A stretch of 52,273 nucleotides of DNA from positions 1 through 52,273 of the IMG/VR virus record IMGVR_UViG_3300045950_000170. One strand, given 5' to 3'. Each line of letters opens with the position of its first letter. Positions within the stretch are counted from its first letter, which is position 1. Source of the DNA: a virus. This document shows, one piece after another, positions 6,655 to 48,233 of this stretch. Under the pieces are notes generated by a model that ran no database searches, was not told the DNA's origin, and saw nothing but the letters and a program-made list of their open reading frames with translations. The position numbers were made by a program, and so were the translations under genes.

Positions 6655-6843
6655 TCAGTCCGGCTTCGCGGCCTGCCGACCCGCTTCGTAAGCGGCCATC
6701 AGGGCGCTCTTGACGGCCCAGACACTGACATCGTGGAAGTCCAGTCGGTCGCTGTTGCGGGTCTCCAAGGACTCAATGAACAGGTGGTCCAGCGCAATTT
6801 GCTGAAGCAGGTTTTCCATGGCTTTGTCGGCTGGTTTGGTCAT
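6655..6843 (-). CDS. DUF6900 domain protein (62 aa)
   Basis: The small protein contains the DUF6900 signature FIESLETRNSDRLDFHDVSV followed by WAVKSALMAAYEAGRQAA. The family is found on proteobacterial mobile elements next to DUF3489 and similar genes, and has no assigned function. Shine-Dalgarno AAGGAG precedes the start at 6843, and repeat copy 4 ends 38 nt upstream. It is the last gene of the minus-strand accessory array and diverges from the terminase genes. Confidence 0.75.
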   Translation of the reverse strand: MTKPADKAMENLLQQIALDHLFIESLETRNSDRLDFHDVSVWAVKSALMAAYEAGRQAAKPD

Positions 6844-6881: not shown

Positions 6882-6909
6882 AACGCGCTGTTCCAGAGGG
6901 AAGCCAAGC
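6882..6909 (-). repeat. Bipartite leader/promoter element, copy 4
   Basis: GCTTGGCTT-N10-CAGCGCGTT on the minus strand, 38 nt before the start at 6843. TTGGCT and GTTCAT are 17 bp apart. CCTCTGG occurs twice around the element as a direct repeat instead of the flanking hairpin of other copies. It lies in the divergent region with the terminase genes. Confidence 0.75.
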
Positions 6910-10581: not shown

Positions 10582-12065
10582 TGAGCTGGTTCGGAAAACT
10601 TCGACGCGGCCTGTTCGGCGGTACGTCACCAACCTATGACGGTATTGGTGGCGGTCGACGTGCGATCGCCTGGCAGGTCGGAAATCCTGGTGCCGTTGCC
10701 GCGCTGGCCTTCACCCAGAACGAACTCCGAGCCAAGAGCCGTGATCTGGTGCGACGCAACGCTTGGGCGGCCGCCGGCGTGGAAGCCTTCGTCGCCAACG
10801 CGATCGGCACTGGCATCAAGCCTCAGTCGATGCTCGCGGACAACGCGCTGCGGGAAGCCATTCACGCCCTCTGGTGGGACTGGTGCAGCGATGCCGACGC
10901 AGCCGGCTTGACCGACTTCTACGGCCTGCAAGCACTCGCCTGCCGGGCAATGTTGGAAGGCGGGGAGGCACTGGTGCGACTGCGCTATCGCCGACCCGAA
11001 GATGGTCTGGCAGTCGGCCTGCAACTTCAGGTGCTGGAACCCGAGCACCTGCCCACGACGATGAATCTTGAGCTCCCGTCCGGCAACATGGTGCGGGCTG
11101 GCATCGAGTTTGATCGTCTCGGGCGACGCACGGCCTACCACCTGTATCGCTCGCATCCCGGCGACGGGACGCTGGCGCCGATGTCGGGCACCGGCGGCAT
11201 GGATACCGTGCGCGTGCCAGCTTCCGAGATCATCCACCTGTTCCGTCCGCTTCGCCCAGGCCAGATCCGTGGAGAGCCCTGGTTGGCGCGGGCACTGGTC
11301 AAGCTCAATGAGCTGGACCAGTACGACGACGCCGAACTGGTGCGCAAGAAGACGGCGGCGATGTTCGCGGGCTTCATCACCCGCCTGGCGCCCGAGGACA
11401 ACCTCATGGGCGAAGGGCTGGCGGACGCCAACGGCGTGTCCCTGGCAGGACTGGAACCCGGGACCTTGCAGCTGCTCGAGCCTGGTGAGGACGTGAAGTT
11501 CAGCCAACCGGCAGACGTCGGGGCCAGCTACGCCGAATTCCTGCGCATGCAGTTCCGGGCAGTTGCGGCGGCGATGGGCATCACTTACGAGATGCTCACC
11601 GGCGATCTGACGCAGGTGAACTACTCGTCGATCCGCGCCGGATTGCTGGAGTTTCGCCGCCGCTGTGAAGCGATCCAGCATGGCGTGATCGTCCACCAGC
11701 TCTGCCGCCAGATCTGGCGCGCATGGATGGAACAGGCTGCGCTCGAAGGTGCACTCGATCTCCCGGGCTTCGTCGGACGCAAACGGGAATACCTAGCCGC
11801 CAAATGGATTCCGCAGGGCTGGCAGTGGGTCGATCCGAAGAAGGAGTTCGACGCGATGCTCACCGCAATCCGTGCCGGGCTGCTTTCGCGCTCCGAAGCC
11901 ATTTCCGCCTTCGGCTACGACGCCGAAGACATCGACCGCGAGATCGCGGCCGACAACCAACGAGCCGACGAACTCGGTCTGGTTTTCGATTCCGACCCGC
12001 GCCACGACAAAGCCCCCATCGCGACGCCCACCCCGGCTGCGGCGCAAGAACCCCAGGACAACTGA
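10581..12065 (+). CDS. Portal protein (lambda gpB family)
   Basis: The 494-residue protein contains gpB-family hallmarks: RDLVRRNAWAAAGVEAFVAN near the N-terminus, FYGLQALACRAMLEGGEALV, a HLFRPLRPGQIRGEPWLARA stretch, and LTQVNYSSIRAGLLEFRRR in the C-terminal half. Portal dodecamers form the DNA entry channel at one capsid vertex and dock terminase and connector proteins. The start is ATG 10581, overlapping the gpW stop. The protease gene follows after 1 nt, giving the lambda order W-B-C-D-E. Confidence 0.92.
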   Translation: MSWFGKLRRGLFGGTSPTYDGIGGGRRAIAWQVGNPGAVAALAFTQNELRAKSRDLVRRNAWAAAGVEAFVANAIGTGIKPQSMLADNALREAIHALWWDWCSDADAAGLTDFYGLQALACRAMLEGGEALVRLRYRRPEDGLAVGLQLQVLEPEHLPTTMNLELPSGNMVRAGIEFDRLGRRTAYHLYRSHPGDGTLAPMSGTGGMDTVRVPASEIIHLFRPLRPGQIRGEPWLARALVKLNELDQYDDAELVRKKTAAMFAGFITRLAPEDNLMGEGLADANGVSLAGLEPGTLQLLEPGEDVKFSQPADVGASYAEFLRMQFRAVAAAMGITYEMLTGDLTQVNYSSIRAGLLEFRRRCEAIQHGVIVHQLCRQIWRAWMEQAALEGALDLPGFVGRKREYLAAKWIPQGWQWVDPKKEFDAMLTAIRAGLLSRSEAISAFGYDAEDIDREIAADNQRADELGLVFDSDPRHDKAPIATPTPAAAQEPQDN

Positions 12066-12066
12066 T

Positions 12067-13386
12067 ATGCAGCTCGCACACCTGGCGTCCCGTCTCTACG
12101 GGACGCCGCTCCTCATTGCGCGATCGAAACTGGACGTGATCCTGTCCGTCCTAGGTCCACGCATCGGATTGCCGGACATCGATGCCGCCGTCCCGCTTCC
12201 CGCCCCAAAGACCAGCGCTTCGGCTGGGCAGCTCGGTATCGCGATCATCCCGGTGCACGGCACGCTGGTGCGACGGGCCATGGGGCTAGAGGCGGCCTCT
12301 GGCCTGACCTCCTATGGCGAGATCGCTGCACGGCTCGACGCGGCGCTTGCGGACCCACAGGTCAACGGCATCCTGCTCGACCTCGACTCCCCCGGCGGTG
12401 AGGCCGGTGGCGTGTTCGAGCTGGCCGAACGGATTCGCGCCGCCAACGACATCAAGCCGGTCTGGGCGCACGCCAACGACTCGGCGTACTCGGCGGCTTA
12501 CGCCATCGCGGCCGCTGCATCGCGCCTGACCCTGTCCCAAACCGCTGGAGTCGGGTCCATCGGCGTCATTGCCCTGCACGTCGACCAGTCCGTCAAGGAT
12601 GCCAAGGACGGGGTTGCCTACACGGCGATCTATGCCGGCCACCACAAGAACGACTTTTCTCCCCATGCGCCCCTGTCGCCGCAAGCTGCCACCACCCTGC
12701 AGTCGGAGGTTGATCGGCTGTACGGGATCTTCGTCGACCAAGTCGCGCGGATGCGCGGTCTGGACAGCGATGCCGTGCGGGAGACCGAAGCAGGCTTGAT
12801 CTTCGGGGATGCGGCGGTTGCGACAGGATTGGCCGACGCCGTGATGAGTTTCGAACAGGCCCTGGTCGAGTTCACCAACGCGCTGGATGCGCAGCGCCGA
12901 CTGGCAATACCCAGCGCCAATACCGCGAAGCGCCGCCCACAAGCTCGCGCCTCGCCCGTGACACTGAACGCCAGCCATCAGATTTCCAGCCATCAACCCT
13001 CTCATTTGGAGCAAACCATGACCGACCAAGAACAGCAGCCCCCGATGGACGACCCCGATCCGGAGCTCACGCCAGACCCGGCAGATACACCGGCGCAAGA
13101 ACCCGCAGCGCCGCCCTTGGCCGCTTCGATCACCGGTGCCACCACCAATGGCCGTATCGAGGCACAAGCCATTGCCGAGATCTGCCTGATCGCAGGCACG
13201 CCGCAGCGCACGGCGGAGTTCCTTGCCTCCGGGATGAGCGAGGCCCAAGTCCGCCGCGCACTGCTCGAGGCTCGCGCCGAACAGCCGGAGATTGCCTCGC
13301 GCATCACCGCCGATGCGGGAACCACCGTGCGACCGGAGAGCAGCCCGGTCGTTGCCGCCGTCAAGAAACTCGCCACGAAGGAGTAA
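12067..13386 (+). CDS. Prohead S49-family protease (gpC-like) with scaffold C-terminus
   Basis: The 439-residue length equals that of lambda gpC. The S49 core runs from about residue 55 to 260, with LLDLDSPGGEAGGVFE, then NDSAYSAAYAIAAAASR. By family pattern Ser142 in AYSAAY is the nucleophile, and Lys194 in GHHKNDFSP is the likely partner, forming a Ser-Lys dyad. The C-terminal 122 residues are acidic and Pro-rich, then helical, and match a scaffold domain that can also be made separately from ATG 13018. The protein matures the prohead. The start follows the portal stop by 1 nt. Confidence 0.9.
   Translation: MQLAHLASRLYGTPLLIARSKLDVILSVLGPRIGLPDIDAAVPLPAPKTSASAGQLGIAIIPVHGTLVRRAMGLEAASGLTSYGEIAARLDAALADPQVNGILLDLDSPGGEAGGVFELAERIRAANDIKPVWAHANDSAYSAAYAIAAAASRLTLSQTAGVGSIGVIALHVDQSVKDAKDGVAYTAIYAGHHKNDFSPHAPLSPQAATTLQSEVDRLYGIFVDQVARMRGLDSDAVRETEAGLIFGDAAVATGLADAVMSFEQALVEFTNALDAQRRLAIPSANTAKRRPQARASPVTLNASHQISSHQPSHLEQTMTDQEQQPPMDDPDPELTPDPADTPAQEPAAPPLAASITGATTNGRIEAQAIAEICLIAGTPQRTAEFLASGMSEAQVRRALLEARAEQPEIASRITADAGTTVRPESSPVVAAVKKLATKE
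13018..13386 (+). CDS. Nested scaffold protein (Nu3-like), in-frame start inside the protease gene
   Basis: Inside the protease gene and in the same frame, ATG 13018 is preceded by TTGGAG with a 6-nt gap to the start, an excellent ribosome-binding site that a coding region would not otherwise need. The 122-residue product has an acidic Pro-rich head (DPDPELTPDPADTPAQEP) and helical segments (AQAIAEICLIAGTPQRTAEF, EAQVRRALLEARAEQP). In lambda the scaffold Nu3 is made exactly this way from the 3' part of C. Scaffold directs prohead assembly and is removed by the protease. Confidence 0.7.
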   Translation: MTDQEQQPPMDDPDPELTPDPADTPAQEPAAPPLAASITGATTNGRIEAQAIAEICLIAGTPQRTAEFLASGMSEAQVRRALLEARAEQPEIASRITADAGTTVRPESSPVVAAVKKLATKE

Positions 13387-28520: not shown

Positions 28521-28984
28521 TCGATGTGCCCAAAGCGGCCATCGAGCTGGCCAAGCGCTTCGAGGGGTTCGAACGCAAGGTCAAGCGCGGAATCGAGACT
28601 AGCGCCGTTCCGTACATCTGCCCCGCAGGTTTCTGGACGATTGGCTACGGTCACCTCTGCGACCCTAAGCACCCGCCGATCACAGAGGCGGAAGCCGAGG
28701 TCTATTTGGCGCGTGATCTCCAATCGGCACTTACCGCCACGCTGCGCTACTGCCCTGTTCTGGCCACCGAGCCCGAGGGGCGGCTCGCTGCCATCGTGGA
28801 TTTTACGTTCAACCTCGGCGCTGGGCGGATACAGACGTCGACGCTGCGACGGCGCATCAACCAGCGGGACTGGGCTGCCGCCGCGACAGAGCTGCGCCGA
28901 TGGGTCTATGGAGGCGGGAAAGTGCTGCCAGGACTCGTCACGCGGCGTGAGGCTGAGGTCGCTTTGCTACTTCGCAACGCCTGA
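28517..28984 (+). CDS. Endolysin, GH24 phage lysozyme
   Basis: The 155-residue protein is a T4/lambdoid-type lysozyme that cleaves the MurNAc-GlcNAc bond. The catalytic Glu16 lies in RFEGFE, and Thr41 in FWTIGYGHLC. The position of T4 Asp20 is Cys35 (YICPAGFW), a variant common in phage lysozymes. The domain ends with LVTRREAEVALLL. No signal peptide is evident, so release depends on a holin. No Rz/Rz1 spanin pair is visible downstream. Confidence 0.93.
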   Translation: MIDVPKAAIELAKRFEGFERKVKRGIETSAVPYICPAGFWTIGYGHLCDPKHPPITEAEAEVYLARDLQSALTATLRYCPVLATEPEGRLAAIVDFTFNLGAGRIQTSTLRRRINQRDWAAAATELRRWVYGGGKVLPGLVTRREAEVALLLRNA

Positions 28985-29004
28985 TTGCAGAAGCTCGAGG
29001 CAGA

Positions 29005-29032
29005 GCTTGGCTTTCCAGCCGAACAGCGCGTT
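29005..29032 (+). repeat. Bipartite leader/promoter element, copy 5
   Basis: GCTTGGCTT-N10-CAGCGCGTT on the plus strand, 32 nt before ATG 29065, about 22 kb from copies 1-4 and inverted with them as its gene is. TTGGCT (29007-29012) and GTTCAT (29030-29035) are 17 bp apart. AAGCTC (28991-28996) and GAGCTT (29003-29008) form a hairpin overlapping its upstream half. Confidence 0.75.
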
Positions 29033-29064
29033 CATGTCATCCACGCCAACAAGGAGCATTAATC

Positions 29065-29355
29065 ATGAGTAACCGATTCAAACGCGCCGTCATTGACGAC
29101 GTGACGCCGCGCAACATCGACGCCAGCCAGCAGGACTACCTTCTTGATCTATTCGAATCGGCCATGAAGTCGGTAGCCACGACGCTGGTGCGCGAGGCCA
29201 AGCTCGACACGTCAGATTTTGCTACGGCAAAAACACGGGGCTGCGAAGGCTTTGCGCTAGTCTTGAGCCGGGTTCGTACCGACTCACGCACCGAGTGGCT
29301 TGGTACGTTTCAGCGTGGCGAACAACACCTCGATGTCATTGGTCATCTTGAGTAA
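29065..29355 (+). CDS. Uncharacterised accessory (moron-like) protein (96 aa)
   Basis: I do not recognise the family. The sequence reads MSNRFKRAVIDDVTPRNIDA, then SQQDYLLDLFESAMKSVATT, LVREAKLDTSDFATAKTRGC and ends LGTFQRGEQHLDVIGHLE; it is a soluble, helical protein with an even charge mix. A strong AAGGAG box is 8 nt before ATG 29065. It lies behind the lysozyme, has its own copy of the bipartite element, and is convergent with the defence operon (6 nt gap), all typical of a moron at the prophage end. Confidence 0.6.
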   Translation: MSNRFKRAVIDDVTPRNIDASQQDYLLDLFESAMKSVATTLVREAKLDTSDFATAKTRGCEGFALVLSRVRTDSRTEWLGTFQRGEQHLDVIGHLE

Positions 29356-30335: not shown

Positions 30336-31673
30336 TCAAGCCGGGACAGCGTCCAAGTTGTCGGCCCGGGCTTTGTTTGAATTGTCCTGAATGAAAGTGA
30401 CGTCGAATGCTGGCGAAGCTGGCAACATGAGTTGGCGCTTTGTGAGGCAAAACGGCAGCACCCAAAGCCGCATCCCATTCGCCTTCGGAAATTCGAAGAC
30501 AGGCAGCGGTTCTGCAAAGGCGTCCGTCTTGGGGTAGATCAATATGATGTCCCCGTTGCCGTCCAGGTAGTGATGACCATAGGCGTACAGCTGATAGAAA
30601 TCTGCCTGGCTGAGTTGGTATTTCTCTCGCCCGTTCTTTTTCGCTGAATCCAGTAGCTTCCACTTCGTGTCCAAGACCAAGCGTGTGTTTTGCTTCTGCT
30701 TGACCAATAAGTCGGGCTTCAAGCGGAACCATCGTTGATCGTCGTGCGCAACGAGGTGCTGACTGCTTGCCTGTGCCTTCAAGACGAAGTCATCGCGTAA
30801 CTGCCTCGCCAAGTGCTTCTCGACATACGCCTCAAACACGGCCTCCATCGGAAATAGCAGCGAAGGGGCGTGATGCTTTCCCATCCCAGAGATGGGGCTA
30901 AGGCCCTGCAGAATTAGCTTCGTCCAGTCCAGTGCAGACTCGTAGTAGCCCATGCCTCGGTCCAGCCTGATCCGTTGAATGTCCATGGCGACATCAACTG
31001 ACAGTGGAACTTCCGCGAAGACAAAACCGAGTTCGCGTGCGACACGCTGGCTCTCCTGTGACCGGCACAGGGTCAGCACATGGCGAAGTGCGCTGTGAAT
31101 CAATCTGTTCTCTGCGCGGTCCTGCGAAAACTCGTCATGCTCGGTGACGAATCGATCTCTCCTGACCAGATTCTGGGAGATCTGTCGAGCTACCAACAAC
31201 CGGCCACGAAGTGCAAAAAGGTTATCCTGTCGCGCGACATAGTCACTGCGCAGTCCGCGCTTGACCAGCGAACCGACGGCCATCAGGAACTGCTGGATGA
31301 ACACCTCCAGGAGAGGCATGCGTTCCGCGACCAAGTCCGCGTTGGCTGTTCTGATGTGTCGAAACTCGGCCAGGCACTTCAACATCTCGATCAGGAGCGC
31401 ACGCGCCTGCTCAGGCGAAGTATCCCTTCCGGTCTTTGGCAGTACCTCGATCTGATATCCGCAAGGGGCGCGAATAACGCCGACATAGCTGGTGACCTGT
31501 ATGGCCCGCTGGCCATTCAATTGAGTCGGCTTGAGCCAGCCAGGGGCATCTTCATCACTTCTAAGGGACTGCGTTTCCAGCCATGCGAAGACACGCTTTG
31601 GCACAGCAAGCCCGACCGCTCCGGCCTTTGCTTCGACGACCTTGTCGAACTCAAAGATCGTGAGGGAATTCAT
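30336..31673 (-). CDS. mcrC: McrC-like 5-methylcytosine restriction subunit
   Basis: The 445-residue protein contains the McrC N-terminal partner-binding region (GVIRAPCGYQIEVLPKTGRD) and the C-terminal PD-(D/E)xK nuclease: RLKPDLLVK with Asp321, then LVLDTKWKLL with Asp335 and Lys337. McrC binds the McrB ring, stimulates its GTPase and cuts DNA with modified cytosines. Its ATG overlaps the mcrB stop (ATGA), the usual mcrBC arrangement. All catalytic residues are present. Confidence 0.92.
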   Translation of the reverse strand: MNSLTIFEFDKVVEAKAGAVGLAVPKRVFAWLETQSLRSDEDAPGWLKPTQLNGQRAIQVTSYVGVIRAPCGYQIEVLPKTGRDTSPEQARALLIEMLKCLAEFRHIRTANADLVAERMPLLEVFIQQFLMAVGSLVKRGLRSDYVARQDNLFALRGRLLVARQISQNLVRRDRFVTEHDEFSQDRAENRLIHSALRHVLTLCRSQESQRVARELGFVFAEVPLSVDVAMDIQRIRLDRGMGYYESALDWTKLILQGLSPISGMGKHHAPSLLFPMEAVFEAYVEKHLARQLRDDFVLKAQASSQHLVAHDDQRWFRLKPDLLVKQKQNTRLVLDTKWKLLDSAKKNGREKYQLSQADFYQLYAYGHHYLDGNGDIILIYPKTDAFAEPLPVFEFPKANGMRLWVLPFCLTKRQLMLPASPAFDVTFIQDNSNKARADNLDAVPA

Positions 31674-33664
31674 CCGGCGGTCACGTCTGGTTTGGCTGCA
31701 TAAATGCCAACATACGCGTCAGGCTCCTCAAGAGCAGCAGCGTTCAGCTGGTAGCGAGAACGAATCGCGTACTGATCCAGCTCGTGCTCACGACCGAAGA
31801 GTGCCAGCAGATCCTCCTCGCGGCCGATTTCATGGACGAACTGATGCTCCTGCTTCGGCTTCTGGTTATCGCCCAGGACCAGTCGAATCTTCTGCCAGTC
31901 CTCGAAAAAGTATTCCTCCAGCAGCGGAATGATCTTGTTCCGGAACACTGTCTTCAGCTCGCTGAAGCGATCTTCATCTTTCAGGTCTTTGATGCGCGTG
32001 AAGTAGGCATGCCCCACCGTGTGGTCGCGGTCGTACAGGGCCTCGATCCGCTTGTTGAGCATGATCAGTAACTGCTCGATGTTGATGTCCACGCCGTTGT
32101 GGGAGACGATGGTGCCCGTCAGAACCGAGGGCTTGGGCATTGATTCAACGAACTCGAATCGACGGCGAAGCGCGGTGTCGACCAGTGCCAATGATCGGTC
32201 TGCCGTGTTCATCGTCCCGATCACATCAATGTTCGAAGGCACGCTGAAACTCTCTGCAGAGTACGGCAGCGTTACGGAGACGGGATACTTCGCTCCTTCG
32301 CGCTTGTCCACTTCCACGAGTGTGATGAGCTCGCCGAAGATCTTGCTGATGTTCCCGCGATTGATCTCATCGATCACCATCGCGTATTGCCGCGACGGGT
32401 TCTTACGCGCCAGGTCACACAACCTCAAGAAAGCCCCTGGCTTGATCTCATAACGTACCTCACCATCCGATGCGGCGGCTGCCTCAGTGTCTGCTGCACG
32501 CTTCTTGCCACGCTTGGTGATCACAGGGCGCAGACCCTCGACAAATTCCTCGTACCCGTAGGACTGATGGAAGGTGACAAACTCGTAGCGCTCGCCATAT
32601 TCGGCATCGGTGTACTCTTTCTCGAGCAAGGCCTGCAAATCAAATGTCTTGCCGGTTCCAGGCGGGCCGTAGTAGATGACGTTCTTTGGCGGCTTGTCGC
32701 TTTTGGGCTCGTCTTCAATGTCGTAGTCATCGGGCCAGTAGCCATTGCGCCCGGCACGCGGCCCGAGCTTCGCCGGCCAACTGCCTTCATCTTTGTCAGC
32801 AGCCTCGAAGAGCTGAACCAGCTCGCTGGTGAGATCGGTAGACTCCAGCTCATCCAGCCCGGCAAAGGCAGACCAGCTGACCCGGATGCCATCCTTGCGC
32901 AAGAACAGCCATCCGACGGGGCCACCTTTGACCGCTCCCTTTTCCTTTCGTCCGAAGCGCAGCTGGCTGTTTGTGGCCCGGGTGAACCACCAGTCCAACC
33001 CCATCTCGTTTACTGCACGGGCAAGTCGCCCGAATAGCTCTGTCGTCGTGGCGGTCCACAGTGGTTGGCGTTCGACGAAATCCTCGTGCCCTTGGAAGTG
33101 CGCCAGCAGGCTTGCGTTGTCAGCATCAGCAGATAGCCCCAACTGATCAGCCAGATCGTCGTAGCTGATTTTGAAGTTCTTGATGGCCTCCGCGCTCCAG
33201 TCGACCAGCGCAGTAAAATCCAGCGCAAGGCCGTCGTTGGCAGACTTGATGGCCACAATGGGCGAAGACTTCAACGGTCCTCGAATCTGCTCGTACTTCT
33301 TGCGCAATACCGGGTCATCGACCTTGATATCTACGAGGTCGATCTTGACCACAAAACCAAGGTCGGCGTCGATGCCTACGGTGTAGGCCAGCCCTTCAGG
33401 CGCGCTATTTGATGGGTAAATCCGGGCCCAGTTGTAGGGAATGAACTTCTTCTGCCATTGATCAGTGGGCTTGCGAACGGTCTTGGTCCACCCACCCGTG
33501 AAAAGTTGCTGTTGCAGCGCCTCAGCCCACTGCTTGGTGACGTCGTAGGCCTGCCCCAGCTCCTCGTAGACGCGCTGCTGCTCCGGGTTGGTCTTGTCAT
33601 AGACCGTTCCCTTCCACTTGTTCAGCAGCTTGAAATGGTCATTGTTGAAATAGTTCTGTGCCAT
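31670..33664 (-). CDS. mcrB: McrB-like AAA+ GTPase restriction subunit
   Basis: The 664-residue protein has an N-terminal target-recognition region of unfamiliar type (about 1-320) and a McrB AAA+ motor: Walker A GPPGTGKT (333-340), Walker B MVIDEINRGN (about 429-438), GTMNTADR (483-490, the McrB signature) and ALRRRFEF. McrB rings translocate DNA by GTP hydrolysis and recruit McrC. The N-terminal part contains a DUF3578-like stretch (IYPSNSAPEGLAYTVGIDAD) that may set modification specificity. Complete and in operon with mcrC. Confidence 0.9.
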   Translation of the reverse strand: MAQNYFNNDHFKLLNKWKGTVYDKTNPEQQRVYEELGQAYDVTKQWAEALQQQLFTGGWTKTVRKPTDQWQKKFIPYNWARIYPSNSAPEGLAYTVGIDADLGFVVKIDLVDIKVDDPVLRKKYEQIRGPLKSSPIVAIKSANDGLALDFTALVDWSAEAIKNFKISYDDLADQLGLSADADNASLLAHFQGHEDFVERQPLWTATTTELFGRLARAVNEMGLDWWFTRATNSQLRFGRKEKGAVKGGPVGWLFLRKDGIRVSWSAFAGLDELESTDLTSELVQLFEAADKDEGSWPAKLGPRAGRNGYWPDDYDIEDEPKSDKPPKNVIYYGPPGTGKTFDLQALLEKEYTDAEYGERYEFVTFHQSYGYEEFVEGLRPVITKRGKKRAADTEAAAASDGEVRYEIKPGAFLRLCDLARKNPSRQYAMVIDEINRGNISKIFGELITLVEVDKREGAKYPVSVTLPYSAESFSVPSNIDVIGTMNTADRSLALVDTALRRRFEFVESMPKPSVLTGTIVSHNGVDINIEQLLIMLNKRIEALYDRDHTVGHAYFTRIKDLKDEDRFSELKTVFRNKIIPLLEEYFFEDWQKIRLVLGDNQKPKQEHQFVHEIGREEDLLALFGREHELDQYAIRSRYQLNAAALEEPDAYVGIYAAKPDVTAG

Positions 33665-33668
33665 CGTC

Positions 33669-34364
33669 TCAAATCCCTTCTACGTCCATGCCGTGTTCTG
33701 CCAACCAGATCTTTCGCCGCTCGAAATCAGGAAGTGCGCGTTCGACCCGCTGCCAGAACTCTGGCGTGTGATGCGGTTGATGCAGGTGCGCCAGTTCATG
33801 TACGACCACGTACTCGGCGATGCGCGGCGGCAACAGGATGGTCTTCCAGTGAAAGTACAGCCAGTCGCCTTTGCCGCATGATCCCCAGCGGTAACCCAGA
33901 TCCTGCACCTTCACGCCAACAGGCCGGACCTCCATGCGTGCCACATAGTCCTGCACCTTGTCCCACAGCCAAAGCTTGGCCCGGCCGCTGTACCACTGAA
34001 CCAAATGGTGCCGGGCGTTTTCGACCAGGTCGCGGCGCAACAGGAAGCGGCCATTCAGCAGTTTCAAAGCCACATCCTGTTCATCCACCAGTCGCAATCG
34101 GTAGCTACGACCCAGGTATAGAAAACCCTCGCCATCGACGTAACTCTTGGTCGGTACTGCCTTTTGCAGCCGATCTTTCTCCGCCAGCTTGGTGTAGATC
34201 CAGAAGCGCTTTTCCAGGACGAACTCGCGCAGACGTTCTTCTTCCACATCGGGCGGTGCCGACAGCACCAAATCGCCGCTGCGATCCACGGTGATCTGCA
34301 GCGTTCTGCGCCGACTGCTGGGTTTCAGCTCGAAGGAGAGATCGTCTACGGTCAGCACGCTCAT
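33669..34364 (-). CDS. YgjP-like M48-type metallopeptidase
   Basis: The 231-residue protein carries the zinc protease motif HELAHLHQPHHTPEFW (HExxH near residue 191, with a following His) and the family signature GYRWGSCGKGDWLYFHWKTI. It is a YgjP/DUF45-type metallopeptidase. Such genes recur within type I restriction operons directly after hsdR, where they are suspected to process or remove HsdR, but this is not proven. It overlaps the hsdR stop by 4 bp and sits 4 nt before mcrB, tying the two restriction systems together. Confidence 0.88.
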   Translation of the reverse strand: MSVLTVDDLSFELKPSSRRRTLQITVDRSGDLVLSAPPDVEEERLREFVLEKRFWIYTKLAEKDRLQKAVPTKSYVDGEGFLYLGRSYRLRLVDEQDVALKLLNGRFLLRRDLVENARHHLVQWYSGRAKLWLWDKVQDYVARMEVRPVGVKVQDLGYRWGSCGKGDWLYFHWKTILLPPRIAEYVVVHELAHLHQPHHTPEFWQRVERALPDFERRKIWLAEHGMDVEGI

Positions 34365-37300
34365 GCCTTGATCAACCTCTCATGGTTGGCGCGGGCCAAT
34401 TCCAGCAAGCGATCCTTCAGGGCTGAGACATCACCGGGCGCAACTAGCCTCGAAGTGCGCAGCGTTCTGAAGATGCGCGCCCCCAAAGCGTCCTGAGCTG
34501 GCCGCTTGTGTGGTTCCCAGAAGGTGTCGGTCAGTTCGCCGGCAATCATGTCGACTAGCTCTACGGTCAGGTCGCGAATCTTGAGCAATTGCTCATCCGT
34601 CGGTGGCTCGCTCCCCAGTACGGCCTCCAGCAGCATTCGCAGGAACGGTAGGTAATGCTCGGGCATGTCAGCGGGTGCCGCATCGTCACTGATGCTCCCG
34701 GCACGCATTTCGTTGATGATCTTCTGCAATGCGGCAATCAGCTCATCCCACTGATCCGCCAGCGTTTTCAAAATCTCACTCAGCCGCTCACTGAGCTTGC
34801 GGAACAGCACCGGGTCCTCATCCAGATGTTTGCGGATGTGAGAGCGAATGGCGTGCTCCATCTCCGACGCCTTGGCGCGGTCATTGGCCTGGCGCGACAG
34901 ATGCGTGTCGAACTCCGCGTCGGTCAGTGCAATCGGCGGGATCTTCGGATCGATGCCCAAGGAAATCACATGGTCATCGATCAGCTTGCGGACCTTGGCG
35001 CCGACATCCTTGCCGAGAACCGGCGTGTCCTTGTAGCGGTTGCGGGCTCGGGCGTAGATGTACGAGAGGGTCTTGGCGTCCTTGGAGAAGGGCAAGCCTT
35101 CCGGGCGCGGCAAAACCATGTCCAGCGAACCCAGGAACTGCTTGAGTTTCACGGTGAACTCTGCACGCAGTCGTTCGTCCGCCAGCACTTCAACGCAGGT
35201 CTCCACGTCATCCAGTGACTCGATGTCGCGGCTGCGGAACAGGTCCACCACACGCAGGTGCCGATCGCGCAGCGCCGGCACTTCGTCTTTCAGGCTCTGC
35301 AATGCCCCCTGAATGTCCTCGTCAGCGTAGGCGGCCAGAGCTTCCTTCAGGTGTTGGGCGACGCCGTAGTAATCCACCACGATGCCGCAGCGCTTGCCGA
35401 AGCCGGTGCGGTTCACGCGAGCAATGGCCTGCAGCAGCTCCGCCTCGCGGATCGGCCGATCGAGATACATCACGCCTTCAATCGGCGCATCGAAGCCGGT
35501 CAACAGCATCGACTTCACGACCAGGAAAGCCAGCGCGTCGGTCTTCTCCGGCTTGGTGTGGAACAGCGGTTTCTTGAAGCGCTTGATCCGTGTCTCGTTG
35601 GCCGCCGCGTCGGTCCACTGCTTCCAGGCCGGATCGTCGTTGTTGCCACCGGAGATCACCGCCGCGAACTCGATCTTCTTCAGCGTGTCGCGATAGCGCC
35701 AGGCTTGCACAATGGCCTGCACCTTGGGCGGGCGCTGACACAGCGTTTCGTCGTCCAGCGCCTTGTCTTCGGGTGGTAGCGCTTCGGCCTCGGCCAGCAA
35801 ATCGGCCCTGGCCGTTTCAAACGCGGCTACGTAACGCACAGCGGCCAAGCGGCTGTAGGCCACCACTTGAGCCTTGTAGCCATTGGGCAGAATGTTGGTC
35901 ACGTAGTGGCGCAACATGTCACGTGCCTTGTCCGCGATCAGCAGCGGGGCGTCGAAGATCTGGCCCTTGGTGGCGTACTTCTGCTTGATCGCCTCCAGAT
36001 CTTCCGCGCTGCGCTCGCGGAACAAGTCCTCGAACAGATCATCCAGACTGGCACCGTCTTTGACCGCACCCTGCGCGGTGCGCCCCTCGTACAGCACGGG
36101 TACTGTCGCACCGTCTTCCTCGGCCTCTTTGATCGTGTAGCGGTCGATGAATTCGCCGAATATCTCGTGGGTGCGCTTCTTGTCACCCATGATGATCGGC
36201 GTGCCGGTGAATCCGATACGCGCGCAGTTGGGTAGCCCCGCCAGCAGATTGGCGTGCAGATCGCCTGCCTGGGTGCGGTGCGCTTCATCCACAAGCACGA
36301 GGATGGTCTCGTCCTCGTTCAACACTTCAAACGTTTTCGCCGCAGGCTTGGCCACATAGGTTGAAGCCGCTGGCTCCTTCACGCCCATTTGCCCGTCGTG
36401 CCAGCCTTCCGGAATATCCTCCTCGGTCAGGCCCGGCTCACCGGCGGCATCTGGGTCCCGGTACTTCTGGATCGTGGCGAACAGCAGCCCCGGCCCTTTG
36501 CGGCGCACCAACTTCTGCACAGCTACGGTAGAAGTCGCTACCTCAACCACTTCGCCGGTCAGCGTTGCCGTGGCGCTGAGCTGGTCCTGCAAGTCTTTGC
36601 GATCGGTCACCACCACCACTTTGAAACGGCGCAGGGCGGCATTCGTGCGCAGCTTGCGCACCAGGAACACCATGGTCAGCGATTTACCAGAACCCTGGGT
36701 GTGCCAGATCACGCCACCGCGCCGGTCGTACTCGCCATCCTGCAGACGCGTCTTGCCGCTCTGCAGGCGCTCGATCGCCTTGTTCACGGCGCGGAACTGC
36801 TGATAGCGACAAGCCACCTTGATGGTCTGACCACCTGCCGGCATGAACAGGGTGAAGTGGCGCACGATGTCCAGCAGGTTTGCTTGGGTGAGCATGCCCG
36901 CTACCAAGCGTTGCTGCTCGGAAAGATGCTCAACGCCAAGGCTGGCCGCGACGTCTGCCTCTCGCGCCGGGGCTACCGTCTTCCAGCTTGCGAAGTGCTC
37001 GAACAAGCCGCCGATGGTGCCCACGCGCGCCTCGTCAAAGCTGGTCGCGATCAACAGCTGATTGGTGAAGAAGAGCGGCTCGTTGCCCTCAAAGTCTTCC
37101 ACCTCGTAGTTGGCGTGCCGCTGGTTGCTGTAGCGGCGCAACTGGTCAATCGCCTCGGCCAGTGGTTCCGGGACGGACGGGCTCTTGCACTCCACCACCA
37201 CTAGCGGAATGCCGTTCACCAGCAATACCAAGTCCGGCACGATGAAGGCCTTACCGCTGTTGTAGCCGGGCGGGCAATCCACGCGGTACTGGTTAACGAC

Positions 37301-37699
37301 CGTGAAGCTGTTGTTCTCGGGAGTGTCCCAGTCGATGAAGCGGATGGTGTGGCCACGTCCGCCGTCCCAGCCGGGCAGGCCATCAACGGTGATGCCGAGC
37401 AACAGCAATTCTGTCGCCGCCTGATTGGCCTCGATGAGCTTGGGCCGCGCAATGCGCGTGATCGCGGCGACGGCCTCTGACAGGCGTTCGTCATCCAGCC
37501 AGGGCGCGAGCACCCCATCGACTTCACGCAGGTTGATGTCGGCCAGTTTTTTGCGCAGCACGCCTTCCTGGATCACTTCGGTGAAGCTGCTACGCCCGGT
37601 GACCACGGGGTCGTCAATGCTTCCTTCGATATGCGTCCAGCCCAGACCTTCCAGTTGCGTGACGAACGGCTTTTCTACGTCTTCGAGTTCCCATCCCAT
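34361..37699 (-). CDS. hsdR: Type I restriction enzyme, endonuclease/motor subunit
   Basis: The 1112-residue subunit has an N-terminal PD-(D/E)xK nuclease (IVPDLVLLV with Asp156, LVVVECKSP with Glu170 and Lys172), an SF2 motor with Walker A HTQGSGKS (333-340) and DEAH (471-474), and a long helical C-terminus that docks on HsdM/S. It translocates DNA with ATP and cuts at a distance from the unmethylated target. Length is typical. It lies 15 nt after hsdS and overlaps the metallopeptidase start. All visible key motifs are intact. Confidence 0.95.
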   Translation of the reverse strand: MGWELEDVEKPFVTQLEGLGWTHIEGSIDDPVVTGRSSFTEVIQEGVLRKKLADINLREVDGVLAPWLDDERLSEAVAAITRIARPKLIEANQAATELLLLGITVDGLPGWDGGRGHTIRFIDWDTPENNSFTVVNQYRVDCPPGYNSGKAFIVPDLVLLVNGIPLVVVECKSPSVPEPLAEAIDQLRRYSNQRHANYEVEDFEGNEPLFFTNQLLIATSFDEARVGTIGGLFEHFASWKTVAPAREADVAASLGVEHLSEQQRLVAGMLTQANLLDIVRHFTLFMPAGGQTIKVACRYQQFRAVNKAIERLQSGKTRLQDGEYDRRGGVIWHTQGSGKSLTMVFLVRKLRTNAALRRFKVVVVTDRKDLQDQLSATATLTGEVVEVATSTVAVQKLVRRKGPGLLFATIQKYRDPDAAGEPGLTEEDIPEGWHDGQMGVKEPAASTYVAKPAAKTFEVLNEDETILVLVDEAHRTQAGDLHANLLAGLPNCARIGFTGTPIIMGDKKRTHEIFGEFIDRYTIKEAEEDGATVPVLYEGRTAQGAVKDGASLDDLFEDLFRERSAEDLEAIKQKYATKGQIFDAPLLIADKARDMLRHYVTNILPNGYKAQVVAYSRLAAVRYVAAFETARADLLAEAEALPPEDKALDDETLCQRPPKVQAIVQAWRYRDTLKKIEFAAVISGGNNDDPAWKQWTDAAANETRIKRFKKPLFHTKPEKTDALAFLVVKSMLLTGFDAPIEGVMYLDRPIREAELLQAIARVNRTGFGKRCGIVVDYYGVAQHLKEALAAYADEDIQGALQSLKDEVPALRDRHLRVVDLFRSRDIESLDDVETCVEVLADERLRAEFTVKLKQFLGSLDMVLPRPEGLPFSKDAKTLSYIYARARNRYKDTPVLGKDVGAKVRKLIDDHVISLGIDPKIPPIALTDAEFDTHLSRQANDRAKASEMEHAIRSHIRKHLDEDPVLFRKLSERLSEILKTLADQWDELIAALQKIINEMRAGSISDDAAPADMPEHYLPFLRMLLEAVLGSEPPTDEQLLKIRDLTVELVDMIAGELTDTFWEPHKRPAQDALGARIFRTLRTSRLVAPGDVSALKDRLLELARANHERLIKA

Positions 37700-37714
37700 A
37701 TTCCGGCCCTTTTC

Positions 37715-38903
37715 TTATTGCGCCAGCAACGGCGTGACCCGGACGCGGCCGGTGAGGAGGTCGTCCATGAGGCCCGTTTTTTGAGCCATCAACTTTGCAA
37801 GTTGCGCTTCTTCATTTGTAAGGCGCGCATCAATTGCTTGAATCCGAAATCCAATTGCTTCCATCTCCTCCGCTTTTTGCGGTGTCGGCTGCTCCAATCC
37901 GAGAATCTGGTCGCGTCCGATACCTGGGATATTTCCTCCGGTCGCCATGCGATTGAACTGCCCCTGCAAACTTTGAAAAACGGCGACCCAATAAGATCTC
38001 GTCTTTTCCGCTACTCGAATCGCCATTAATTGTCGGCTGATACATGCCCGTACCCCAGCAACTGCAACCTTGCCACACCCAGATCCTTTAACAGTAATTA
38101 GCAAGTCCCCGACCTCACACATAACTTGGGGACGAGTCGTGTATGAAGTAACGACAGTTGTCGCTCCTATGAAATCAGTGGGCCCTGTAAAGTAAGGCAC
38201 GCCTTTTCCGGCTGCGTTACATAGGTCTGTGGCGATGTGCTGGCCTGAGATAAGAACAATTGAGGCTCCGAGTGGCTTAACATCCCACGCCTTCGGAATC
38301 CACCCCAGCGGCGAATCTTGATACAGTTCCGGCGCTTGCTCATAGCTAGGCCGCAACTCACCATTGGCATCCACACCCCGGGTCAGCAGGTCATGCAACA
38401 AGCCCTGCTTGACCTGTTTCAGCTTCTCGACTATGGCCTCGGTCTGATGAATGGCTGTGTCGAGGGTGTCGAGGACTTCTGCAATCTTGCGCTGTTGGGA
38501 ATCACCAGGACAAAAAGCGCTGATGTTCTCCAGAATTTCTTTGTCAACGTGTGGAATTCCGGTGCCATTTGTTTGATTCTTTAGAATTCTCTCTGCGTGC
38601 TTTAACAAATGGAAAAAAAATGCCGGATAGAAATGTTCGTCAGGGGTAATTCGCGCCATCGTTGACGCCACAATTCCTTCTTTGGCCTTGAAGAACTCTC
38701 CGGCATTCGATCCGTCCCAAAGCAGAATCGTCGCGCCATCGCTAACCCGGACAGCATCACTGCTTGCCTTGGCTGAAATTCCAACAGTTCTGTTTCTTAA
38801 GTATTCAGGGCTTAGGTATATTTCCGCCCCCTTGCCGTGAAACGGAATTAACAGGGGAGGCTTACCTTTCTGGATTGAAATATGTTCGCCAAGCTGCAGA
38901 AAT

Positions 38904-38911
<8 letters not shown>
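37715..38911 (-). CDS. hsdS: Type I restriction enzyme, specificity subunit
   Basis: The 398-residue subunit has two target recognition domains separated by a coiled conserved spacer ([40 protein letters not shown]) and a C-terminal spacer ([35 protein letters not shown]). The repeated LLTGRV/LLTRGV ends mark the two conserved regions. HsdS sets the bipartite DNA target. By eye its recognition domains are visibly more A/T-rich than the flanking genes, as expected for swapped domains. It overlaps the hsdM stop by 8 bp. Confidence 0.93.
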
Positions 38912-41645
<2,734 letters not shown>

Positions 41646-43109: not shown

Positions 43110-43113
<4 letters not shown>

Positions 43114-45188
43114 TCGTCGTGCCCCGTCTCTGAAAGGGCCATGGGCCAAACTACGCCACTACCGCTTTTGCGCAGCAGCCATGCAGACACCGTCAGCGTC
43201 CACCGCGAGTCGACCATGTCATCCACCAGGAGGACTGGTCCGGGAGGAATGGGCTGGCCGTTGAGTGCGAGCGAACCATCAATGTTTCGCGCCTGTTGTG
43301 TACTGTTTGCCATCGTTTTCTGTTCGGGCCTTGCGTCTGTTTTTGCGATGACCATATGAAACGGCAGACCCAGCGCGGCAGCCAAGCGTTGCGCAAAATT
43401 CGGCACCAATTCGGGATGCCGAAGCGAAGGAACGCAGGTCACCCAGGTCGGGCTCGGTTGCGGATTCCACTCCTGAATCATCTTCACGCACGCAGCAACG
43501 AGGTCATCGGAGAAGTGGCCGTCGTGGTACTTACCCTGTCGAACCAAGCCGCCCCAACCGGCATCGCCCCAGACGCATAGCGCCTTGCCGGATTCGGCCT
43601 GATGGGCAGGTGCGATGAATCCCTTGACGCCATACTGGGGCATTCCACCATCGGGCCATTTTTTGCGTGGCTCGATGGGCAAGCTCGTTCGACGAAGAAA
43701 TTCGACGGCGGCTTTTACCAGCTCGGTATCCACGGTTGCAGGCAATGGCGGTAAGGCAGGTTCTGTGACGACACTTGGATCGCCGTCGAGCGCACCAATC
43801 AAAAAGCCCATGTGCTCACCAAACGGCAGGCTGACGTAGTCCTGCATCTGCTGGTGCTCGTCTCGCCGTAGCGCGGTGAGGCGTTCTGCTCGATCCCAGA
43901 ACGCTTCACTCAGCGTTGCCGCCGTGAGCTGCCACTTGCTGCCTTGCTTGGCGATGGGTGCCGGCGCTTCGAGGGAAAGCAGTGCAATCGTCTTGTCGAC
44001 ACGTCCTTTGCTCAGATTGACTCGACTGAGCAGCTCGGGAACAGATAGCCCGTTGGGCTCGTCTTCAAGCGCTCCCAGGACGTCGGCAACTTCTTGTCGG
44101 GTTGGGAAGGCACTCCGGATAAACCAGTCAGTGATGTCAGACTCTTCCTGACCACTGAGGAGTACTCCATAGGCGGAGTCCAGTGCGCGTCCCGCGCGAC
44201 CAACCTGCTGGTAGTAGGCGACGACCGATCCCGGCATTTGGTAGTGGATGACAAACGCCAGATCCGGCTTGTCGTAACCCATGCCTAGCGCTGTTGTGGC
44301 AACCAGCGCTTTGACTTGGTTGTTGAGCAGCGCCTGCTCAAGCTGTTCTCGGCGATCGCCGGTTTCACCAGTGTAGGCTTCCACATTGAAGCCTTGGGTC
44401 TTCAGCCATTGCGCCACTTGATTGGCATCACGAACCGTCAGCGTGTAGATGATGCCGTGGCCCTGCAGCGTGGCCAGTTGCTCTGCCAGCCAGGCAAGGC
44501 GCTCGGCCTGGCTGGGCAGGCGGATCGTTTGCAGGGAAAGCGAGGTCCGATTTAAGTCGCCACGCGAGACGTCCAGCTTCGGACCGAGCACGGCAGCAAG
44601 GTCCTCCATCACGCGGTTATTCGCTGTTGCCGTGGTGGCGAGCAGGCGCAGGTTTGGCGGCAGCGTTTTGACGATCCGCTCCAACAGGCGATAGTGAGGG
44701 CGGAAGTCGTGGCCCCAGTCGGAAATGCAATGTGCCTCGTCGATGACCAACATCGAAATTTGTGCAGCGATGCCGGCCAGAACCTGCGTCCGAAAGCGCT
44801 CGTTCGCCAGGCGCTCCGGCGAGATCAAGAGAATGTCGATCTCCCCCTTGGCCAGCTTGCCCTCGACTGCTGTCCAGTCGTCCATGTTGTCGGAGTTGAT
44901 GGTGGCTGCGCGAACCCCCATCCGCTCTGCCGCTGCGATCTGGTTTCGCATCAGTGCCAGCAGCGGCGAGATCAGTAACGCAGGGCCGGCTCCAGCTTCC
45001 CGCAGCAACTTGGTCGCGATGAAGTAGACAAAGCTCTTACCCCACCCGGTCTTCTGCACGACCAGCAAGCGGCCTTTGCCTTCGACGATGTGACGAATGG
45101 CATCTTCTTGGCCGTCGCGGAAAGTGGCATCGGCGCGTCCGGAACCGATCCGGAGCAATTCCAACGCGCGTTTTGGATCGTAGGCCAT
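43110..45188 (-). CDS. RecQ-family helicase fused to a ComF-like phosphoribosyltransferase domain
   Basis: The 692-residue protein begins with a RecQ-type SF2 helicase: Q motif FRDGQEDA, Walker A TGWGKS (47-52), DEAH with the RecQ loop [18 protein letters not shown] (about 149-166), and [20 protein letters not shown] in lobe 2. Its C-terminal about 130 residues are a ComF/PRTase-like domain with PRPP loop [13 protein letters not shown] (652-664). The RecQ zinc-cysteine set is not evident. Helicase and PRTase together with DprA suggest a DNA-processing conflict module. The start is 1 nt after the WYL gene. Confidence 0.85.
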
Positions 45189-45189
45189 G

Positions 45190-46095
45190 TTATTGCTCTC
45201 CCTTGTTTTGGTCGGGCGAGCGGTACCCCGGCGCCAACACAGCGTTCTTGACGCCGTACAGCGCCAGGTGATCTTTCAGCCAGAGCCTGAATTCATAACC
45301 GCGCAGACTGTGGTCCGGCGAGCAGTCCACACTCCACTGCCGCAAGATGTATCCGGCGGTGGCAGCACGCAGCTTCATCCGCAGAGACCCGCGAACCATG
45401 CCGTAATCCATCTCCGTAATTTCAGGGCGGGGCTGGTCCGGGTGCGGCACCATCTCCAGCTCCACGATCCGGGTCCATTGGATGTCCTGATCACTGCGCT
45501 CATGGGGCTGCACATCTGCATCCCTCATAAGGACCGGGCGCTTGATCCGGGTGATGACGAAATCCCGGAACTCCTGCGACTTCCGGTCGAAGGCGCGAAC
45601 GTGCCAACGGAGGCCGTTGTCGATCAGCGCGAACGGGACGATCTCCCGCTCGGTGCGGCCACTGGAGATGGAGTGGTACTCGATGCCGAGCGGACACTCC
45701 TGGTGGATCGCACGGGTCACGCTCGCCAACACATCCAGATCCGGATGCGTGAGCCGTGACGGGCTCTCGCTGGCCACCCACGCCTTGAGCCGCATCGGCT
45801 CACCATCGCCAAAGCCCTGGGTCAGCCACGACAGCACCCGCTCCGGGGGGAAGTCGAATACGGGCCGGAAGTCCGGCCCCAGGACGTAGGACTTGCCCTT
45901 GGGGTCGTAGTCGATGTTGCCCGGGGCCAACTCTTTGTACAGCGCCAGATCCCTGGATGCGGCGGCGGACTGGATGCCAAACCGCGTGACCAAGTCCTGG
46001 CGGCGTATCTCCCCGATGAAGCGCACGCGCAACTCCACGAACGCGAGCCGGTCGCGTTGTGGCTGGGTTAGATCTGCAAGCTGTTCGTTCGACAT
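45190..46095 (-). CDS. WYL-domain transcriptional regulator (BrxR/CapW-like)
   Basis: The 301-residue protein has an N-terminal winged helix (FVELRVRFIGEIRRQDLVTR, FGIQSAAASRDLALYKELAP) and a FDPKGKSY-like wing, then a WYL domain (about 125-200) with IEYHSISSGRTEREIVPFAL and LRWHVRAFDRKSQEFRDFVI, and a C-terminal WCX-like region. BrxR and CapW proteins of this build repress phage-defence operons and may sense nucleic acid or ligand. It is the first gene of the ten-gene minus operon and divergent from the CBASS pair. It probably represses one or both. Confidence 0.88.
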   Translation of the reverse strand: MSNEQLADLTQPQRDRLAFVELRVRFIGEIRRQDLVTRFGIQSAAASRDLALYKELAPGNIDYDPKGKSYVLGPDFRPVFDFPPERVLSWLTQGFGDGEPMRLKAWVASESPSRLTHPDLDVLASVTRAIHQECPLGIEYHSISSGRTEREIVPFALIDNGLRWHVRAFDRKSQEFRDFVITRIKRPVLMRDADVQPHERSDQDIQWTRIVELEMVPHPDQPRPEITEMDYGMVRGSLRMKLRAATAGYILRQWSVDCSPDHSLRGYEFRLWLKDHLALYGVKNAVLAPGYRSPDQNKGEQ

Positions 46096-46254: not shown

Positions 46255-46377
46255 ATGCAAAATTTCGCAGAGCTTCACCTAAAGCCAGAGACGCTGGCGC
46301 GACACGATTTCAGCCTCGGGATTGCGCTGATGATCGCCGGCATTGCATGTGTTCATCAGTTTTTGGGAGGGCGTTGA
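46255..46377 (+). CDS. Possible 40-residue membrane peptide before the phospholipase gene
   Basis: The frame gives MQNFAELHLKPETLARHDFS followed by one hydrophobic span (LGIALMIAGIACVHQFL) and GGR. It ends 2 nt before the phospholipase start, so translation could be coupled. The ribosome-binding site is weak (AAAGGA 14 nt upstream). It may be a leader peptide, a small membrane partner of the phospholipase, or chance. No family known. Confidence 0.25.
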   Translation: MQNFAELHLKPETLARHDFSLGIALMIAGIACVHQFLGGR

Positions 46378-46379
46378 AA

Positions 46380-47327
46380 ATGGTGGAATCGAAGGAGGAC
46401 TCGACGTCACCTGCCTTGCTGCGCGTCCTGACGCTAGACGGCGGCGGTGCCAAGGGCTTTTACACACTGGGGGTACTCAAGGAAATCGAGGCTATGGTCG
46501 GGTGCCCACTGCACCAGAAATTCGATCTGGTGTTTGGGACCAGCACAGGCGCGATCATCGCGTCACTGATTGCGCTCGGCCACGACGTCGATTCCATCCT
46601 GCAGCTTTACCGCAAGCACGTGCCTACCGTGATGTCACAGAAGACCGCTCCGGCCAGGTCGCAGGCATTGAAAAATCTGGCGAGCGAGGTCTTCGGCGAT
46701 ACAACGTTCAGTGATGTGAAGACGGGTGTCGGTATCGTCACGGCCAAGTGGCTGACCGAGCGCCCGATGATCTTCAAGGGCAGCGTTGCCCAAGCGCATG
46801 GACGTGTCGGCACGTTCGTCCCAGGCTTTGGTGTAAGCATCGCAGACGCCGTCAAAGCATCGTGCTCGGCTTACCCGTTCTTTGAGCGGACGATCGTAAG
46901 AACATCAATGGGTGAGGACATCGAGCTGATCGATGGCGGGTACTGCGCAAATAACCCGACGCTGTACGCGATCGCCGACGCAGTCCAGGCACTGCAAAGT
47001 GACCGCAAGGACATCCGGCTGGTGAGCGTTGGCGTGGGTGTCTACCCCGACCCGAAGCCGAGCTTCCTGATGAGGCTGGCGAAGAAATATCTCGTTAGCG
47101 TGCAGTTGCTGCAGAAGACATTGGAAATCAACACGCAGTCGATGGACCAACTGCGGCAGATCCTTTTCCATGACATACCGACCATTCGGATCAGTGACTC
47201 CTACGTCACCCCTGAAATGGCGACCGATCTTCTGGAGCACGACCTCAATAAACTGGACATCTTGTTCCAGCGAGGGCGGGAGTCGTTCGCGTCACGGGAG
47301 CAGCAGCTTCGCGAGTATTTGATATAG
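46380..47327 (+). CDS. Patatin-like phospholipase, CBASS effector (CapV-like)
   Basis: The 315-residue protein is a patatin lipase with oxyanion motif GGGAKG (21-26), nucleophile elbow GTSTG (Ser55) and catalytic Asp185 in DGG. In CBASS, CapV phospholipases are activated by cyclic dinucleotides from the adjacent CD-NTase and degrade the inner membrane, killing the infected cell. ATG 46380 is chosen for its GGGAGG box 9 nt upstream; ATG 46347 would add 11 residues. The CD-NTase gene follows after 12 nt, so the two form an operon. Confidence 0.9.
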   Translation: MVESKEDSTSPALLRVLTLDGGGAKGFYTLGVLKEIEAMVGCPLHQKFDLVFGTSTGAIIASLIALGHDVDSILQLYRKHVPTVMSQKTAPARSQALKNLASEVFGDTTFSDVKTGVGIVTAKWLTERPMIFKGSVAQAHGRVGTFVPGFGVSIADAVKASCSAYPFFERTIVRTSMGEDIELIDGGYCANNPTLYAIADAVQALQSDRKDIRLVSVGVGVYPDPKPSFLMRLAKKYLVSVQLLQKTLEINTQSMDQLRQILFHDIPTIRISDSYVTPEMATDLLEHDLNKLDILFQRGRESFASREQQLREYLI

Positions 47328-47339
47328 CCAGGGGGGAAG

Positions 47340-48233
47340 ATGCCTATTCCAGAATCACAGCTCGAAACGTGGTCCCATCAGGGATCAATCACCCAGTCGA
47401 GCAACACCTATAACGCGATCAAAACCGTCTTGGAGGCGAGCACCACGCCCTACGCCGGCAAGAATTTCAAGGTGTTCCTTCAAGGCTCATACGGCAACGA
47501 CACGAATATCTATGCCGAGAGCGACGTGGACATCGTCATTCGGCTCGATGACTGCTTCCATAGCGATCTCGAATCGCTGTCCGATGACGAAAAGTCGGCC
47601 TACAAGCAGGCATTCAGCGACGCGACCTACACGCACACCGACTTCAAACGGGACGTGCTGTCGGTGCTTGAAGACCAATACGGATCAGCGGTGAAAACTG
47701 GCGACAAGGCAATTGCCATCGATGCGAGCGGATCACGGCGCAAGTCGGATGTGATTGTCGCGACGCAATTCCGGCGGTACTTCAAGTTCCGGTCAGCGAG
47801 CGACTCCGAGTACGTCGAAGGCATCTGTTTCTTCAACGCTGCCGGCGAACGAATTGCGAACTACCCGAAGCAGCATTCGGCAAATTTGACGGCGAAGCAT
47901 CAGGCCTCGTCGAAGTGGCTCAAACCCATGGTTCGTGTGTTGAAGAATATTCGCAGTCGGATGGTTGACGAAGGCTTGATCAAGGCAGGCGTCGCGCCGT
48001 CGTACTACATCGAGGGCCTGCTGTACAACGTACCGAATGAGAAATTCACCCACAGCCTCGAGGACTGCATGGTCAACATCCTCAACTGGTATCGGCGGGA
48101 TGCGGCCAAGACTGACTTGGTTTGCGCCAACGAACAGTATTACTTGCTTCGTGATGGCTACCACACCTGCTGGTCTCAGACGGACTGTGATGCACTGGTC
48201 GAGGCAGCGGTTGATCTCTGGAATCAGTGGTAA
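47340..48233 (+). CDS. CD-NTase, cyclic (oligo)nucleotide synthase of CBASS
   Basis: The 297-residue protein has the polymerase-beta-like core: [20 protein letters not shown], with Gly49-Ser50, metal-binding Asp62 and Asp64, and a third Asp137 in RRKSDVIVA. The C-terminal helical part contains [20 protein letters not shown] and [13 protein letters not shown]. These enzymes sense infection and make cyclic nucleotides that activate the effector. The clade and product cannot be fixed by eye. No Cap2/Cap3 or Cap7/Cap6 genes are seen, so this fits a minimal type I CBASS. Shine-Dalgarno GGGGGGAAG lies before the start. Confidence 0.88.

Follow-up and report, generated by a model that had tools for sequence, protein, structure and literature searches.

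The stretch of viral DNA analysed here (the window, 52,273 nucleotides) carries a bipartite 9-N10-9 element at 29005-29032 on the plus strand. It reads GCTTGGCTT tccagccgaa CAGCGCGTT and is separated by 32 nt (29033-29064) from the ATG at 29065. The full conserved core of this copy extends to the CAT at 29035, the T of which is conserved in 99% of copies in the family alignment. Four further copies, all on the minus strand, lie between 5.7 and 6.9 kb. The initial annotation described the pattern 32 nt ahead of ATG 29065 in an orientation that follows its gene; every coordinate checked holds, and all five copies point at an ATG on their own strand. The features are as follows.

5285-5653, minus: phrog_8020 gene, 122 aa, cluster C1 (E 3.7e-45)
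5693-5720, minus: element copy before the phrog_8020 gene (pattern scan)
5742-5960, minus: 72-aa gene, cluster C14 (similarity clustering)
5997-6024, minus: element copy before the 72-aa gene (pattern scan)
6053-6571, minus: DUF3489 (PF11994) gene, 172 aa, two predicted winged-helix domains
6611-6638, minus: element copy before the DUF3489 gene (pattern scan)
6655-6843, minus: DUF6900 (PF21841) gene, 62 aa (E 1.6e-26)
6882-6909, minus: element copy before the DUF6900 gene (pattern scan)
28978-29003, plus: upstream flank, site of A-rich positions in the family; a family property, weak in copy 5 alone
29005-29032, plus: element copy 5, GCTTGGCTT-N10-CAGCGCGTT (profile score 41.8 bits)
29007-29012, plus: proposed -35 hexamer TTGGCT (from conserved positions and 17-bp spacing)
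29030-29035, plus: proposed non-canonical -10 hexamer GTTCAT, not sigma-70-like
29051-29056, plus: Shine-Dalgarno AAGGAG (from the sequence)
29065-29355, plus: gene of a 96-aa product behind copy 5, coding by codon-position test

The genes behind the five copies are small and mostly obscure. The 29065 product has no Pfam or PHROG match; its structure is predicted as an alpha/beta model, with which a PDB fold search returned no convincing match. Differences across 31 homologues concentrate by codon position (554/299/1378 at positions 1/2/3), which marks the open reading frame as a real gene. The 72-aa product likewise lacks a Pfam or PHROG match, and the gene at 6053-6571 is assigned to DUF3489 at 113.6 bits against a Pfam cut-off of 29.5. 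Upstream of copy 5, the lysozyme frame stays open past its stop and through the element (28985-29062, 25 codons, TTG start); this frame is probably not a gene, since conservation of the element is at the nucleotide level.

The fifth copy had been placed beyond the lysozyme gene at the other end of the prophage. It does lie beyond that gene, starting 20 nt past the lysozyme stop, but this is the end of the structural module and not of the prophage. Beyond the 29065 gene, up to 52 kb, lies a dense defence cargo region (29362-52209) encoding McrBC (30336-33664, minus), type I restriction HsdR/HsdS/HsdM (34361-41645, minus), a DEAD helicase (43110-45188, minus), a WYL regulator (45190-46095, minus), a CBASS-like patatin with a SMODS nucleotidyltransferase (46347-48233, plus) and an AbiEii toxin (50096-51058, plus), and closed by a serine recombinase fragment (51496-52209, minus). 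At the other side of the window, 2282-5022 holds two consecutive genes, each joining an N-terminal ParB-like domain to a C-terminal DNA methyltransferase domain, and this pair is conserved beside the array in every relative examined.

A scan of the window allowing up to 3 mismatches returned exactly five element sites, each with 0 mismatches, whereas 100 dinucleotide shuffles gave 0.10 sites on average and never more than 2. Exact-pattern scans found the element in at least 120 viral stretches and at least 118 genome stretches, and a profile search also recovers inexact copies. Among the matches listed, a locus holds up to seven copies and the hosts are Beta-, Gamma- and Alphaproteobacteria and Nitrospira; phages of Acidithiobacillia also carry it. 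Thinning the copies until they shared less than 60% upstream identity left 185, which give the consensus GCTTGGCTTC-N5-CGAACAGCGCGTTCAT; divergent phages carry variants of the form (A/G)CTTGGCTT-N10-(C/T/A)AGAGCGTTCAT or TGAAGCGTTCAT. The element is a conserved 31-base feature of a large, little-studied family of bacterial viruses. A host regulon was considered and rejected: the sites found in eight whole genomes all fall into a few tight, prophage-like clusters, and only 28 of 399 Burkholderiales genomes contain its 16-base version, mostly clustered. The reversed control pattern had no match in the eight genomes or in the Burkholderiales genomes listed, and the plasmids scanned gave short, chance-level matches only.

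In the isolate collection, the only carrier found was AcaML1 (JX507079), a phage of Acidithiobacillus caldus that shares its gene order with the window. Three of its copies form an array between the methylases and the terminase, a further one precedes a DUF2924-recombinase pair, and Dcm and McrBC occupy the position equivalent to the defence cargo of the window. The element is unannotated in AcaML1. The annotated gpNu1 gene (gp33, terminase small subunit) lies on the other strand and overlaps both the first copy and the beginning of the gene behind it; the positions concerned are 11797-12258 and 12002-12062. The gpNu1 annotation is probably wrong, as relatives of gp23, not gp33, directly precede the large terminase in other phages. 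Three relatives (G029, G030 and G033) keep the element and the early module, with homologues of AcaML1 gp9, gp10, gp13, gp14, gp17 and gp25; no recognisable homologue of the AcaML1 terminase, portal, capsid or lysozyme was found in them. Their AcaML1-like early and integration modules make for clear early/structural mosaicism. The relatives compared here are virus records or genomes, many of them incomplete.

The element is tied to gene starts. Behind 85% of 469 copies lies an ATG open reading frame with a Shine-Dalgarno sequence in the same direction, compared with 16% in the opposite direction. The element usually starts 60-67 nt and ends about 33-39 nt ahead of the ATG; the start-to-ATG distance peaks at 65-67 nt in most families and is 60-61 nt in the 29065 family. 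Clustered by similarity, the downstream proteins make up 47 clusters, of which about 25 have at least two members; the element precedes about 25 or more unrelated small-gene families. By these clusters, the same family was never found twice in one locus. Among them are DUF3489, DUF6900, phrog_8020, the 29065 family and a DUF2924 protein followed by a serine recombinase, and this last cluster makes the integrase operon part of the set.

The same link emerges when homologues are gathered by protein and the upstream DNA is then examined. Of 31 proteins homologous to the 29065 product, 29 have the element ahead of their gene, between -61 and -56, and the other two have it in degenerate form; absence of the element from this position had been named as the result that would count against a shared unit. 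It is also found upstream of 78 of 79 DUF3489 homologues and 62 of 80 DUF6900 homologues. In the Burkholderiales sample, an element-like match, in some cases a weak variant, precedes the gene at 23 of 30 DUF3489 loci. One of the seven loci without a match is cut by a contig end; the DUF3489 genes at L486, L489, L491, L500 and L501 have no detectable element upstream, and such genes could have another cognate motif. Within the 29065 family, identity to the window is 96% in the 9-mers, 75% in the coding sequence, 59% in the N10 and 38% in the upstream 60 nt. The 9-mers are far better conserved than their surroundings, which indicates that the 29065 copy has long been in place and is held by a constraint of its own, and a recent duplication is excluded. 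The analysis supports the initial annotation in treating the element as a real shared regulatory unit and not a local duplication, and its proposal that the 29065 product would belong to one regulon with the DUF3489 and DUF6900 proteins is supported computationally, the regulon itself being deduced from sequence.

The flanks of the element provide further insight. In a GC-rich background, there are A-rich patches with their centres 26, 15 and 4 nt ahead of the element start, an 11-bp spacing that is seen across the 185 thinned copies and in most gene families separately (periodogram peak 7.4; shuffle maximum 0.78). On the other side, index 36 is a pyrimidine in 98% of copies and index 37 a purine in 80%, 6-7 nt past the conserved CAT. 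Between this step and the ATG, T and G are scarce, as expected of an unstructured leader. These three independent features, all outside the element, point to a promoter. With the purine at index 37 as +1, the A-tracts would fall at -41, -52 and -63, TTGGCT (index 2-7) would be the -35 and GTTCAT would lie at -10. RNA polymerase alpha-CTD binds UP elements at about -41, -52 and -63, and A-tracts with this phasing occur near those positions in most of the unrelated families. The TTG of the -35, a 17-bp spacer and a pyrimidine-purine start 6-7 nt after the -10 also fit sigma-70. The -10 itself does not: sigma-70 requires A at its position 2, and the hexamer, GTTCAT or GTTACT, agrees only in the T at position 6. 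No ordinary sigma-70 promoter or terminator was found near the element at either site examined, and no T7-like RNA polymerase was found among the AcaML1 early proteins scanned, which are part of its gene set.

Copies within one phage vary in concert. The variant at index 22 agrees in 404 of 405 pairs of copies from one phage (maximum of 5000 shuffles, 391), and this sharing suggests that a single, probably phage-encoded protein recognises all copies. The best candidate for this role is the DUF3489 protein, which is present, practically always once, in 45 of 49 records (some of them chosen through DUF3489), compared with 38 of 49 for gp10. Among Burkholderiales genomes, DUF3489 occurs in 20 of 28 with the element and in 18 of 371 without it (P = 3e-17), and in 15 of the 16 with at least two copies; this association is partly circular, because the DUF3489 gene itself carries the element. 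Other early genes, AcaML1 gp9, gp10, gp12-gp18 and gp25, also travel with it. The modelled DUF3489 structure consists of two winged-helix domains, the relative placement of which is not predicted (pTM 0.40), and its fold matches are nearest to ArsR, MarR and DriD-type regulators, all weak and none at E <= 0.001. Two such domains, if correctly predicted, would suit an asymmetric site of two blocks. We also considered AcaML1 gp9, an AlpA-like HTH_17 protein, as specificity factor and rejected it: it is present in nearly all but blind to the element variant, being near-identical in G038, which has the canonical element, and in G029 and G030, which have the CAGAGCG variant.

Together, we consider it probable that the element forms the core of a promoter specific to these phages, which serves dispersed accessory genes and, in relatives, the integrase operon. 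A copy would stand in front of each accessory gene, and host RNA polymerase would contact the phased A-tracts through alpha-CTD, as well as the TTGGCT -35 box, with transcription of the 29065 gene starting near 29043. The conserved GC-rich AGCGCGTTCAT would stand in for the normal -10. Since this -10 does not fit sigma-70, the need for a partner is to be expected; a phage-encoded partner would read the element, and all genes bearing it would respond together. The DUF3489 protein is the candidate partner, and as its gene lies in the array behind an element of its own, it may regulate itself. Two points weigh against a promoter: the -10 lacks the A that sigma-70 requires, and the spacing to the ATG is tighter than a promoter needs and would also fit a role at the level of the leader. 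It is tempting to go further and speculate, with considerable doubt, that these temperate phages possess promoters of a class all their own, in which a two-winged-helix DUF3489 protein reads the non-canonical -10 type. This protein would govern its own gene, the integrase operon and an accessory set of single-gene cassettes that changes from phage to phage, such that acquiring an element would amount to joining the regulon.

The leading alternative, to which we give a clearly smaller chance, treats the element as an operator, where a repressor or activator would bind beside otherwise ordinary promoters, and not as the promoter core. The bipartite site of about two helical turns, with block starts 19 bp apart, favours this, as do the concerted variation and the predicted winged-helix protein in the array. 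However, no recognisable sigma-70 promoter lies within reach, the gap between some copies and the gene before them is only about 20-35 nt, and what is conserved beyond the element itself has promoter spacing: A-tracts and a pyrimidine-purine step resembling a start site. We regard as somewhat less probable still a motif in the transcribed 5' leader that acts on the mRNA, by affecting its translation or processing or by binding a protein or a small RNA. The fixed distance to the ATG and the G/T-poor leader would be accounted for in this way, but the copies share no common hairpin, and only half of them have a lower folding energy with their own upstream flank than with swapped flanks. The sole pairing within the element, GAAC/GTTC, persists in 58-96% and shows no compensation, and there is neither an Rfam match nor a conserved promoter upstream of the element. 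A subset of copies does have an upstream AAGCCAAGC arm; the swapped-flank folding test showed that it is not general, and an RNA hairpin was rejected.

It is improbable that the element serves mainly as a recombination boundary for cassette exchange, in the manner of lambdoid boundary sequences or integron sites. Array composition does differ between phages around a constant element, and no locus holds two genes of one family. Against this, the N10, flanks and spacing appear to be typical of each downstream gene family, which indicates that element and gene move together; orientation is fixed, as is the distance to the ATG, and the isolated single copies before the integrase operon and the 29065 gene are conserved too. 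Conservation as a short upstream peptide, LGF..EQRVH, can be dismissed, for although several copies have an open frame across the element, conservation at third codon positions (0.96) matches that at first and second (0.93 and 0.97).

The phage-specific promoter that we favour, or a shared switch of another kind, would make these genes one co-regulated set. The element links about 25 or more small phage protein families of unassigned function with the integrase, across Beta-, Gamma- and Alphaproteobacteria, Acidithiobacillia and Nitrospira, so that the timing and purpose of the genes bearing it become one testable question. It can also serve as a tag, with any gene that has the element 60-67 nt upstream predicted to be a member of the set, and this should help to find accessory genes, possibly for anti-defence or lysogeny, in uncultured prophages. 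Promoters whose -10 is a conserved GC-rich sequence, if they form a class, would be of interest to the transcription field.

The open-access literature on DUF3489/DUF6900, DUF2924 and the element sequence gave no description of the element, but several known systems resemble it in part. A sigma-70 promoter with an UP element is alike in the A-tracts near -41, -52 and -63, the 17-bp spacer and the pyrimidine-purine start; it is unlike in the -10, which here is GTTCAT or GTTACT within a GC-rich conserved block, and the information content of the element is far above that of a normal host promoter. T4 middle promoters, with their MotA box, and other activator-dependent phage promoters repeat a -30/-35 element at many genes for a phage activator. 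T4 middle promoters keep a good sigma-70 -10, whereas that of the element is non-canonical. In cluster K mycobacteriophages, start-associated sequence (SAS) repeats stand at many gene starts of one phage group, are absent from the host and have clade-specific variants (PMC3203893; PMC12699233). The SAS, GGGATAGGAGCCC, is a 13-bp consensus immediately upstream of start codons that partly pairs with rRNA, and the ESAS is a 17-bp imperfect inverted repeat (PMC3203893). The likeness to the element lies in a short asymmetric sequence repeated before many gene families of one phage group, associated with particular families, mostly oriented with the gene, absent from the host and variable by clade. 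The element differs from the SAS in its consensus and in starting 60-67 nt before the ATG, and from the ESAS in lacking a dyad, its only 4-bp GAAC/GTTC match not being maintained. Unlike both, it has phased A-tracts, a link to the integrase operon and a range that takes in phages of many proteobacterial classes. SAS/ESAS are the nearest described kind, the resemblance being one of kind and not of sequence.
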